64,000 nt of DNA from Fusobacterium sp. JB019 (GTDB lineage Bacteria; Fusobacteriota; Fusobacteriia; Fusobacteriales; Fusobacteriaceae): NCBI GenBank assembly GCA_030673965.1, contig JAUTCN010000008.1, positions 62,001 through 126,000 of the forward strand, given 5' to 3'. Under the pieces are notes generated by a model. That model made no database searches, was not told the DNA's origin, and worked only from the letters and a program-made list of their open reading frames with translations. This document shows positions 55,265 to 58,675 of this stretch, piece after piece. The position numbers and the translations under genes were made by a program. The stretch's first letter is position 1. Every line of letters begins with the position of its first letter.

Positions 55265-55293
55265 TTGACATTTTAAATAAAGAATGCTAGAAT
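55265..55293 (+). promoter_or_regulatory. Promoter of the WCWC leader / SNF transporter unit
   Basis: TTGACA at 55265-55270 and TAGAAT at 55288-55293, spacer 17, about 40 bases before the leader peptide. Confidence 0.85.
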
Positions 55294-55332
55294 ACCTCAA
55301 ATAAAAAAATAAAACAAAGGGGGGTGTATCAA

Positions 55333-55404
55333 ATGAAAAAATTAAATAATAATTATCAAAAAAATACATCTCTTGTAAATACATTTTCTTGGTGTTGGTG
55401 CTAA
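55333..55404 (+). CDS. Leader peptide ending Trp-Cys-Trp-Cys
   Basis: A 23-codon open frame with a strong GGGGGG ribosome site. It ends TCT TGG TGT TGG TGC TAA, giving SWCWC at the C-terminus. Rare Trp and Cys codons placed last before the stop, followed by alternative hairpins and a terminator, are the marks of a regulatory leader peptide. It precedes an SNF-family transporter, cysK and cysE, so it probably senses charged Cys and/or Trp tRNA or the free amino acids. Confidence 0.85.
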   Translation: MKKLNNNYQKNTSLVNTFSWCWC

Positions 55405-55408
55405 AAGA

Positions 55409-55485
55409 AGTTTGTAATTGTTTTAATTAAAACAGATACAAACTAATTTTGCGTTGCAAATATCTAGTCAAGAAAGTGTATCTGT
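55409..55485 (+). promoter_or_regulatory. Alternative RNA hairpins of the leader
   Basis: Segment 1 AGTTTGTA (55409-55416) pairs with TACAAACT (55437-55444). The overlapping segment ACAGATACA (55432-55440) pairs perfectly with TGTATCTGT (55477-55485). The two pairings exclude each other. Segment 1 starts four bases after the leader stop codon, where a ribosome stalled on the Trp/Cys codons would cover it. Confidence 0.7.
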
Positions 55486-55517
55486 GTATATATAATTAAT
55501 GTTAAATTGTTAATTAG

Positions 55518-55546
55518 AACCTCAGGTGCAGCCTGAGGTTTTTTTT
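55518..55546 (+). terminator. Terminator (attenuator) between leader peptide and transporter gene
   Basis: Perfect nine-base-pair stem AACCTCAGG / CCTGAGGTT with TGCAG loop, then eight T including the stem end. It lies between the promoter and the first structural gene, and no second promoter is seen after it, so transcription of the unit must pass it. Confidence 0.88.
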
Positions 55547-55593
55547 ATAGAAAAAATTAAAAAAATTAAAAATTAAAAAGTAGGAGGGAAATA

Positions 55594-57102
55594 ATGGAAA
55601 AGAAAAGAGAGTTATGGACAAGTCGATCAGGATTTATTTTTGCAGCTATTGGTGCAGCAGTGGGGCTTGGAAACTTATGGAGATTTCCATTTCAAGCTTA
55701 CAAAAATGGTGGAGGAGCTTTTTTCTTTCCATATATAGTTGCATTATTTTCTTGTGCAATACCTTTAATGATATTAGAATATACTTATGGACGTAGAATT
55801 AGAGGAGGGTCAATAAAAGCTTTTAAAACTATAAGTGCTAAGTATGAATGGATTGGTTGGATGCAAGTGATGGTACCTATAATAGTTATGATGTTTTATT
55901 GTACTATTATATCAGTATCTGTTATCTTTATGGTATGGTCTTTAGGACATGCCTTTGGAATAGTTAATTTCATGGGAGATCCTGGGAAATTAATGGGAAT
56001 GGTAGCAGGTAGTGCAAAGGGTCCCTTTGATTTTGCAAGTGGTATAAGTAAATATTTATTTTCTTTTGTAATTTTAGTATGGATAGCTAATGTGGTTATT
56101 GTAAGAAAGGGAATTTCAAAAGGAATAGAAAAAGTTTCAAAAATATTTACACCTGTATTAATAATAATGATGTTTATGTTTATGATAAATTCACTTAGAT
56201 TAAATGGCGCTATGCTAGGTTTAAAGCAATTATTTACACCAGATTTTTCAAAAATATTAAATCCAAGTATCTGGGTTTCAGCTTATGCTCAAGTTTTTTT
56301 CTCGACAACTTTGGCAGTTGGTGTTATGATAGCTTATGGGTCATACTTAAAAGAAGACTCAGATATTGTAGGAAGTTCTCTTATGACAGTTATGGCAAAT
56401 GCTTCATTTGATATAATTGCAGGAGTGACAGTTTTCTCAACTTTAGGATATTTGGTAACAAATATGGGAGTACAATTTGATTCATTTGGAAGTGGAGCAG
56501 GAATTGCATTTATAGCTTTTCCTATAGCAATAAGCACAATAACTTCAAATGTATTTTTACAAGGAATGCTTGGATTTTTATTCTTTTTCTGTTTATTTAT
56601 AGCAGGACTTTCTTCAAGTATTTCAATGTTAGAAGCTTTTACAACAGCTTCTTTAGATAAATTTAAAATTCCAAGAGAAAGAATAGTAACAATAATTTCA
56701 ATTATTGGATTTTTAGGAAGTGTATGTTTTGCAACATTTGCAGGATTTAATTATATATTAGACATAGTAGATTCACATGTTGGAAATTATGTAATAGCAA
56801 CACTTGGATTAGTTGAAACAATATTAGTTTGTTATGTATATGGAGTTGAAAAAATTAGAGTAGATGCTAATGAACATTCAAATATAAAAGTTGGAAAATA
56901 TTTTAATTTCTTATTAAAGTATGTGACTCCGATAATATTAGGAATAACAGTTGTTTCAAATCTAGGTAAAGAATTTAAAAAATTAGCAGGGTTATTAGTT
57001 GAAAATAAAGAAGCCTTTATGGGAGAAATGGTATTTGGTTGGGGAGTTATATTACTTATGCTTTTAGCTTCAATCTTCTTGTATTTAAAGAAAGAAGATT
57101 AG
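55594..57102 (+). CDS. Sodium:neurotransmitter symporter family (SNF) transporter
   Basis: A 502-residue LeuT-fold sodium symporter with about 12 membrane helices. The helix 1 substrate/sodium motif is GFIFAAIGAAVGLGNLWRFP, followed by YKNGGGAFFFPYI; GIAFIAFPIAIS falls in the helix 6-7 area. Bacterial members import amino acids, including tryptophan (TnaT). Its position behind a leader with two Trp and two Cys codons suggests that the substrate is Trp, Cys or a related amino acid. AGGAGG precedes ATG. Confidence 0.9.
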   Translation: MEKKRELWTSRSGFIFAAIGAAVGLGNLWRFPFQAYKNGGGAFFFPYIVALFSCAIPLMILEYTYGRRIRGGSIKAFKTISAKYEWIGWMQVMVPIIVMMFYCTIISVSVIFMVWSLGHAFGIVNFMGDPGKLMGMVAGSAKGPFDFASGISKYLFSFVILVWIANVVIVRKGISKGIEKVSKIFTPVLIIMMFMFMINSLRLNGAMLGLKQLFTPDFSKILNPSIWVSAYAQVFFSTTLAVGVMIAYGSYLKEDSDIVGSSLMTVMANASFDIIAGVTVFSTLGYLVTNMGVQFDSFGSGAGIAFIAFPIAISTITSNVFLQGMLGFLFFFCLFIAGLSSSISMLEAFTTASLDKFKIPRERIVTIISIIGFLGSVCFATFAGFNYILDIVDSHVGNYVIATLGLVETILVCYVYGVEKIRVDANEHSNIKVGKYFNFLLKYVTPIILGITVVSNLGKEFKKLAGLLVENKEAFMGEMVFGWGVILLMLLASIFLYLKKED

Positions 57103-57161: not shown

Positions 57162-58091
57162 ATGATAGTAAAAAATGTATTAGAATTAATAGGAAAGACA
57201 CCAATTTTAAAATTAAATAATGTTTGTGGTAATTCATACTGCTGTGAGGATATGGCTGATATATATATTAAGTTAGAAGGGAAAAATCCTGGTGGAAGTA
57301 TTAAGGATAGAGTAGCTCTTAATATGATTGAAAAAGCTGAAAAGGAAGGTTTATTAAAAGAAAATGGAACAATAATAGAACCAACAAGTGGAAATACAGG
57401 AATTGGTCTTGTTTATATAGGAAGATTAAAAGGATATAATGTAAAAATAGTTATGCCTGATTCTATGAGTCAAGAAAGAATAAATATTATGAAAGCTTAT
57501 GGTGGGGAAGTTATATTAACTCCAGGAAAATTAGGAATGAAGGGTGCTATTGAAAAGGCAGAAGAACTAACTAAAGAAATAGAAAATAGTTTTATGCCAG
57601 GTCAATTTGATAACCTAGCTAATCCAGAAATTCACTATAATACTACAGCGGAAGAAATAATAGAAGATTTTAATGATTTAGATGCCTTTGTTGCAGGAGT
57701 TGGAACAGGTGGAACAATTGTAGGAAACGGGAAAAAACTAAAAGAAAAATATAAGAATATAAAAATTTACGCAGTGGAACCAAATGAATCTCCTGTTTTA
57801 TCAGGTGGAAAACCAGGACCACATAAAATACAAGGAATAGGGGCAGGATTTATTCCAAAAATAGTTGATTTAGATGTAATAGATCATGTTGTAAAGGTAG
57901 AAAGTGAAGATGCCTTTGAAACTTGTAGAGTGGTAGGTAAAAATGAAGGAATTTTATTTGGTATATCAACAGGTGCTAATATATATGCAGCAATAGAGGT
58001 TGCTAAAAAATTAGGTCCTGGTAAAAAAGTATTAACAGTTTCTCCAGATGGAGGAGAAAAATACTTATCCACAGACTTATATAAATTTTAG
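57162..58091 (+). CDS. cysK: Cysteine synthase CysK
   Basis: O-acetylserine sulfhydrylase, a PLP enzyme joining O-acetylserine and sulphide to cysteine. It has 309 residues; the PLP lysine is Lys48 in [12 protein letters not shown], and [27 protein letters not shown] and QGIGAGFIP are typical of CysK. An extra Cys-rich piece lies near the N-terminus ([16 protein letters not shown]) in place of the usual short loop. It is 59 bases behind the transporter gene and directly followed by cysE. Confidence 0.95.
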
Positions 58092-58100
58092 GAGAAAATA

Positions 58101-58628
58101 ATGTTTAAACAATTGAATTACGATTTAGAAAATATAGTTAAATTAGATCCAGCTGCAAGAAATAAATTAGAAGTATTACTACTATATCCTTGTGTACATA
58201 GCTTAATTGCCCATAGGATAGCTCATTTTCTTTATACAAAGAAAAGATATTTTTTAGCAAGATTTATTTCTCAAGTTTCAAGATTTTTTACAGGTATAGA
58301 AATTCATCCAGGAGCTGTAATAGGAAAAGGATTTTTTATAGATCATGGTATGGGAATAGTTATTGGAGAAACGGCAGTAATAGGTGATAATGTAATGCTA
58401 TACCATCAAGTAACTTTAGGTGGAACTGGAAATGAAAAGGGAGTCAAAAGACATCCAACAGTTGAAGATAACTGTATTATAGGAACAGGAGCAAAGCTTC
58501 TGGGAAATATAACAATAGGAAAAGGAAGCAAAGTAGGAGCCAATTCCGTTGTGTTATCAAGTGTTCCAGAAAATGCTACAGTTGTGGGAATTCCTGGAAA
58601 AGTTAAAAAAATAAACAAAACGAGATAA
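58101..58628 (+). CDS. cysE: Serine O-acetyltransferase CysE
   Basis: Makes O-acetylserine from serine and acetyl-CoA, feeding CysK. It has 175 residues, the short form lacking the long N-terminal helical domain. The left-handed beta-helix hexapeptide repeats are seen as [22 protein letters not shown] and in [20 protein letters not shown]; catalytic His lies in the FIDHGMG region and the second in [10 protein letters not shown]. Feedback inhibition by cysteine is usual. It completes a transport-synthesis unit for cysteine with its own terminator. Confidence 0.95.
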
Positions 58629-58637
58629 AAAATAGCC

Positions 58638-58675
58638 AAAAAGTGGAAATGCGAAATAAACATTTCCACTTTTTT
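58638..58675 (+). terminator. Terminator after cysE
   Basis: AAAAAGTGGAAATG / CATTTCCACTTTTT stem with nine-base loop and T-run. Confidence 0.88.

Follow-up and report, generated by a model that had tools for sequence, protein, structure and literature searches.

The region at 55265-55593, upstream of a transporter-cysK-cysE operon of Fusobacterium sp. JB019, most probably encodes a ribosome-mediated transcription attenuator, a reading to which we assign a probability of about 75% from the sequence, and which would respond to the levels of charged tRNA-Trp and, probably, of charged tRNA-Cys. Coordinates given without a contig refer to the window, i.e., the whole 64,000-nucleotide stretch of DNA analyzed, taken from a genome of 2.27 Mb in 22 contigs, and features lie on the plus strand unless stated otherwise. 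With charged tRNA-Trp and tRNA-Cys both plentiful, the ribosome would reach the stop codon of a short leader ORF and cover an adjoining RNA segment (segment 1), upon which segment 2 would pair with segment 3 (2:3), the terminator would form, and transcription would stop. A ribosome waiting at Trp20 or Cys21 would leave segment 1 free to pair with segment 2 (1:2), and the released segment 3 would then engage the 5′ arm of the terminator (3:4), letting RNA polymerase enter the operon. All parts of this switch can be read in the DNA, together with covariation of 1:2 and 2:3, above-chance 3:4 pairing, and a class-wide match between leader codons and downstream operons.

The leader is preceded by the best sigma-70-type promoter of the region (55265-55293), in which TTGACA (55265-55270) is separated by 17 nt from TAGAAT (55288-55293), with 11 of 12 consensus bases plus the TG of an extended -10 box. 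The same promoter is found in the orthologous locus of species G002, the only other species, among 61 of the family, to have the same operon. Behind it, a G-rich Shine-Dalgarno region, AAGGGGGGTGTA (55317-55328; AGGGAGGATGTAT in G002), leads into the leader ORF at 55333-55404, MKKLNNNYQKNTSLVNTFSWCWC, of 24 codons including the stop (23 sense codons). Its final sense codons, TGG TGT TGG TGC (55390-55401), specify Trp20 (55390-55392), Cys21 (55393-55395), Trp22 (55396-55398), and Cys23 (55399-55401), directly followed by the stop codon (55402-55404); given the frequencies of W (0.7%) and C (1.0%) in neighboring proteins, four consecutive W/C residues would be expected by chance at ~9e-8 per position. 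With its start, Shine-Dalgarno region, and stop, the short ORF looks translated, and frame, start, and stop are all kept in the orthologue. Downstream of the leader, the sequence up to the transporter ATG (55594) has no promoter scoring 10/12 or better. Promoter, 23-codon ORF, and absence of a second promoter thus all agree with a first-pass annotation of this region.

Profile matches also bear out the proposed operon, which comprises an SNF/NSS sodium-dependent transporter homologous to LeuT and MhsT (55594-57102; NF037979, 67.1 bits for a cut-off of 50), cysteine synthase A (cysK, 57162-58091; TIGR01139 above cut-off), and serine O-acetyltransferase (cysE, 58101-58628; NF041874 and TIGR01172 above cut-off), with gaps of 59 nt between transporter and cysK and 9 nt between cysK and cysE. 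A hairpin with A/T flanks at 58638-58674, usable on both strands, is the probable operon terminator. We infer a transporter of Trp/aromatic type, since homologues carry Trp leaders and a paralogue (75–76% identical) adjoins tnaA. At loci L046 and L047 (G000:C22, in the genome of the window, and G002:C39), a second SNF paralogue (75% identical), which has no leader, is neighbored by a tryptophanase gene and two regulator-like genes. No leader was found ahead of the second cysK of the same genome (G000:C14).

Two hairpins and a strong terminator follow the ORF, at the positions given by the first-pass annotation. Segment 1, AGTTTGTA (55409-55416), lies directly behind the stop codon and pairs with TACAAACT (55437-55444) within segment 2, ACAGATACAAACTA (55432-55445). 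The latter can alternatively pair through 55432-55440 with segment 3, TGTATCTGT (55477-55485), and the two hairpins are mutually exclusive because both use 55437-55440. A small inner hairpin, TTTGC-GTT-GCAAA (55448-55460), folds within 2:3. The intrinsic terminator, AACCTCAGG-TGCAG-CCTGAGGTT plus a T tract, spans 55518-55546, made up of 55518-55540 and eight T at 55539-55546. Inside it lies segment 4, CAGGTGCA (55523-55530), to which segment 3 can pair as UGUAUCUG (55477-55484) with CAGGUGCA (55523-55530), i.e., 8 bp including two G-U pairs, for a duplex energy of -10.1 kcal/mol with flanks. An A+T hairpin, TAATTAA..TTAATTA (55493-55516), folds within the loop enclosed by 3:4 and shortens it; a similar inverted repeat is visible in the G002 orthologue and in a WYWY paralogue. 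Pairing of the Shine-Dalgarno region (TGTATC, 55325-55330) with segment 2 seemed possible by eye and was dropped, as it was not seen across the class.

Elements of the same type are widespread in the family. In other species of the genus, further SNF transporters are preceded by plainly related leaders (MKIYNLITRKNISSVDTFWWWSF, MKNYNLINKNNITSVDTFYWWRSF, MKKFYQFNKNINNTSLSHWWSS), and the RNA behind these leaders is conserved (AGTTTGTAATTGTTT...ACAGATACAAACTAATTTTG...TGTATCTGT). Endings among the homologous leaders of the genus are FWWWSF, FYWWRSF, and FSWYWY. A pattern search then recovered the identical RNA type behind leaders rich in His or Pro. Built from 11 sequences, a covariance model spanning segments 1–3 (R1) had matches at E ≤ 1 in 51 of the 61 family genomes, with E-values reaching 1.6e-9 per genome, the best of them among the 11 model-building sequences. 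In the rest of the order, one genome (G080, of another family) matched R1 at E of 0.001 or less, and its leader, MKRFREAMHHHR, precedes the same kind of binding protein (polar-amino-acid ABC) as many His leaders of the family. For comparison, we extracted 91 related elements in Fusobacteriaceae with leader and terminator. By automatic tally, leader codons fit the downstream gene in 85 of these, five were not assignable, their downstream gene being cut off or diverged, and one was a misfit. His leaders precede polar-amino-acid ABC binding proteins (34, including one weaker HYH leader) and hisZ-like genes (8), Pro leaders putP (18), Trp leaders SNF transporters (15) and trpS (1), Met leaders metN (5) and metY/hom (2), and Trp-Tyr leaders DAHP synthase (2). 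NCBIfam profiles identified PutP, TrpS, DAHP synthase, and AsnA above curated cut-offs, while MetN, HisZ, and the binding protein had these as best-matching families below cut-off. Elements found through the Rfam trpB motif (RF04312) add Tyr codons before tyrS, Asn codons (NNNN) before asnA, and a WYFYYF leader before DAHP synthase, the tyrS name and this last gene being assigned by reading the sequence. The leaders thus match their genes across the class, and in the window they offer Trp and Cys codons.

Several loci of this survey are of interest in their own right. L177 (G000:C2:117682-117760) carries a paralogous leader, MKNINKAYLKNISLVNTFSWYWY, and the same RNA element before DAHP synthase, whose coding start is separated from the terminator by ~200 nt in G000 and ~430 nt in G002; the G002 counterpart ends in FSWYWC. 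L235 (G000:C19:2951-3051), with leader MKDYIVLVNNNNGNMSGFELT before asnA, is a probable asparagine attenuator. A proline leader-putP locus occurs twice in the genome in inverted orientation (L213 and L214, G000:C5:30445 and 174382) with 2073/2073 identical bases, from a recent duplication or an assembly artefact. At L249 (G052:C44:12602), a YYYYYR leader and its terminator precede another Tyr-rich ORF, itself upstream of a symporter-like gene; this may be a tandem pair of attenuators. L198 (MFKIKFTWQSWYFED, before an oligopeptide-binding-like protein) showed no codon fit and was set aside as a probable chance match.

Pairing statistics across the class support each helix. The first-pass annotation had proposed covariation as a check, and over 78 distinct sequences both hairpins exceeded their shuffle maxima: 1:2 was paired in 96.8% of cells and showed 53 double-change cells (shuffle mean 19.7, maximum 29), while 2:3 was paired in 82.5% and showed 86 (shuffle mean 42.2, maximum 57), in shuffles that retain the relatedness among sequences. 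When the pairing was offset by 1 to 3 columns, 1:2 fell to 27–57% and 2:3 to 22–48%. We also considered whether the element could be a chance or decayed arrangement, i.e., a functionless ORF plus hairpins of the kind common in A+T-rich DNA such as this region; model E-values, covariation, codon-operon match, and conserved spacing between ORF and RNA all speak against this reading, which we regard as extremely improbable.

For 3:4, the duplex energy averaged -12.3 kcal/mol compared to -5.3 with arms shuffled. Ranked against their own shuffles, 82 of 91 elements were within the best 5%; the window element taken alone sits at the 5% level, so that the weight comes from the class. Throughout the class, the partner of segment 3 is the terminator 5′ arm and loop, and matched changes occur on both sides of the helix (UGCGUCUA/UAGACGCA, UUGUAUCG/CGAUACAA, GUCUGCC/GGUAGAC). 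Here our analysis departs from the first-pass annotation, which had taken 2:3 for an antiterminator without overlap with the terminator stem and had invoked TnaC-like stalling or Rho action. The 91-element comparison points to 2:3 as the helix that permits termination, and to the overlooked helix 55477-55484:55523-55530, which does overlap the terminator, as the true antiterminator, so that neither addition is needed. Predicted from sequence, the pairings show the cascade logic of his-type attenuators with an intrinsic terminator: 3:4 would act as antiterminator, 2:3 would remove it, and 1:2 would restore it, leaving one helix that prevents the terminator.

TnaC exerts Rho-dependent control without an intrinsic terminator in its leader, whereas the window has a strong one. 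By analogy to TnaC, a nascent WCWC peptide together with free Trp or Cys might arrest the ribosome at the stop codon and alter termination, and the position of the putative stalling residues at the extreme C-terminus, as well as the second SNF paralogue beside tnaA, would fit such an arrest. However, leader peptide sequences vary freely over the class, the window leader has no terminal proline in addition to having its intrinsic terminator, and a ribosome held at the stop would, judging from the structures, keep the operon off. We thus consider a TnaC-like arrest improbable, and retain attenuation by stalling at cognate codons.

The latter requires that ribosome position selects the helix, which we evaluated by folding. 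A ribosome at a stop codon covers ~12 nt beyond it (PMC4833913), and the end of the stop codon lies within -4 to +1 nt of the first model position in 83 of 91 elements, so that a ribosome at the stop would cover segment 1. In the window, a ribosome placed at Trp20 or Cys21 yielded 1:2 plus 3:4 for all footprints of 11–17 nt, while a ribosome at the stop, with RNA extending through segment 3, yielded 2:3 for all these footprints. Cys23 behaved like the stop for footprints of 12–17 nt, and Trp22 was borderline. As a stall at Trp20 or Cys21 does not mask segment 1, sensing probably rests on the first Trp and the first Cys, and codons for both amino acids are predicted to occupy effective stalling positions. 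Across the class, a ribosome at the stop, with a 15-nt footprint, gave 2:3 in 90 of 91 elements. A stall at the first cognate codon gave 1:2 at equilibrium in 36 of 90; for the majority of His and Pro elements, the equilibrium favors 2:3 although segment 1 is free. According to these models, 1:2 must win by being made first in elements with a very stable 2:3. For window RNA reaching 55530, the minimum-energy fold contained 3:4 in every case, ribosome at the stop included, and the OFF state would thus depend on 2:3 having formed earlier. Both ON and OFF states therefore rely, in these folding models, on folding order, and we infer both the stalling and its timing.

The two amino acid signals differ in strength. 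Trp sensing by the window leader is very likely from the sequence evidence, and the class as a whole backs the claim of a Trp-linked leader-peptide attenuator. The Cys half of the dual sensor proposed by the first-pass annotation is putative, and we favor it with less assurance: Cys-codon conservation comes from the one orthologue available, and terminal Cys recurs in unrelated leaders of non-Cys genes (HHHHHC, YWWC, WYWC). In G002, transporter, cysK, and cysE are 90%, 81%, and 84% identical to those of the window, and the leader, MKKLNNNYKKNISSENTFSWCWC, retains promoter, ORF, WCWC, and terminator, with a mismatch in segment 3 that weakens both 2:3 and 3:4. All five nucleotide differences within the ORF fall outside WCWC, i.e., 12 nt unchanged versus five changes in the other 60, which is weak evidence for constraint. 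The suggested search for WCWC leaders in other fusobacteria, run over 61 Fusobacteriaceae genomes, yielded this orthologue and no other match with the start and context of a comparable leader; the remaining WCWC-stop matches look like alternative reading frames of longer genes and were rejected.

The Cys codons might alternatively be neutral replacements of Trp or Tyr codons in an otherwise identical switch, with the operon tuned by Trp alone. TGG becomes TGT or TGC by one mutation, so that drift could account for them, the nearest homologues, leaders ahead of SNF transporters, carry Trp codons (WWW, YWW), and terminal Cys also ends non-Cys leaders such as WYWC before the G002 DAHP synthase. 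Conversely, an internal Cys codon is unique to the two leaders before cysK-cysE (0 of 89 others), folding places Cys21 in an effective stalling position, and the operon itself makes cysteine. Leaders of the class otherwise follow the products of their operons, multi-amino-acid cases included: the WYWY paralogue of the same genome and the WYFYYF leader, both before DAHP synthase, suggest co-sensing of several amino acids on the same chassis. We consider a Trp-only attenuator possible yet clearly the less probable option, and a Trp/Cys attenuator the better account of these data. In genus g5 (L024-L029), SNF orthologues of 71–72% identity are preceded by a putative second type of Trp-linked switch. 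Its Trp/Tyr-rich leader, such as MRAQYWWSYIEKLYNNLKNVRYWLWSIDNISLSM, differs from that of the class: GTTATCAATA at the Shine-Dalgarno is the complement of TATTGATAAC, where the ORF ends, and a terminator is present; given this other architecture, these leaders were not merged with the class.

The enterobacterial his attenuator is built from segments A-F, in which a stall favors the antiterminator and termination at the stop codon favors the terminator. It likewise combines a cognate-codon leader ORF, a chain of exclusive helices, and an intrinsic terminator, and from general knowledge of his, 1:2/3:4 versus 2:3/terminator here correspond to B:C/D:E versus C:D/E:F there. Unlike his, the window element has no detectable segment A protector, segment 1 lying directly behind the stop codon, and, since the fold without ribosome is 1:2, a leader that is not translated should escape super-attenuation. 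Nothing exceeded the threshold of the Rfam His_leader model, a His element reaching 34.5 bits for a threshold of 49. The four-segment E. coli trp attenuator similarly has Trp codons in a short leader, exclusive hairpins, and an intrinsic terminator, but the cascade here is longer, and a ribosome at the stop codon masks segment 1 rather than segment 2. T-boxes also couple tRNA charging to an intrinsic terminator; RF00230 had no match in window positions 40000-64000, and seven genomes of the genus held a single T-box, L251 (G000:C2:400391-400662), before a trpE-like gene in the window's own genome. Leader peptides with a comparable His run, outside Proteobacteria and Actinobacteria, were described for hisZ/hisS in bacilli (Firmicutes; Naville and Gautheret 2010, PMC2965389), a study that does not mention fusobacteria.

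The closest published RNA is the orphan trpB motif RF04312 of Firmicutes and Fusobacteria, listed among strong riboswitch candidates, with over 900 published examples mostly before amino-acid-type ABC transporter genes (Narunsky et al. 2024, PMC11109978). In their passage on this motif, the authors assign an antiterminator to the right shoulder of P1 and allow for a classic attenuator, mentioning neither a leader ORF nor segment 1. The likeness to our class extends to a hairpin AGAUAC..GUAUCU whose right shoulder includes an antiterminator, to a terminator, and to amino-acid transporter genes downstream. In a relaxed-E Rfam search, many class elements matched RF04312 at about 35–50 bits for a gathering cut-off of 59, which no match exceeded in any of the 61 family genomes; the window element had no match to it at E of 1 or less, and a gathering-threshold Rfam search of window positions 40000-64000 returned no match to any family. 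These sub-threshold matches and the published proposal would be compatible with 2:3 as an amino-acid aptamer next to an incidental ORF. Yet a short ORF with cognate codons adjoins segment 1 in essentially every element, segments 1 and 2 covary, and no single aptamer would serve the His, Pro, Trp, Tyr, Met, and Asn operons that share this one RNA form, making a ligand-binding riboswitch very improbable here. The leader ORFs and segment 1 in Fusobacteriaceae favor, on sequence grounds, an attenuator over a riboswitch for RF04312-like RNAs.

Taken together, we lean, by a small margin over even odds, towards a joint reading in which Fusobacteriaceae use one conserved RNA chassis whose leader codons are exchanged per operon (His, Pro, Trp, Tyr, Met, Asn, Trp-Tyr, and Trp-Cys), RF04312 is such an attenuator and not a ligand-binding RNA, and the window holds the first Trp/Cys bispecific form. 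Searches of the openly licensed literature returned no fusobacterial attenuators, and no account of this family-wide class as putative leader-peptide attenuators. The finding gives a published orphan riboswitch candidate a mechanism that can be tested. It also suggests that a phylum in which leader-peptide attenuation has hardly been described relies on attenuators for many amino acids, with very few T-boxes in this genus, and that one leader may add up two unrelated amino acid signals, Trp and Cys, for a single operon. Since amino acid uptake and cysteine metabolism matter in fusobacteria, such a switch would bear on the physiology of these bacteria in the host.
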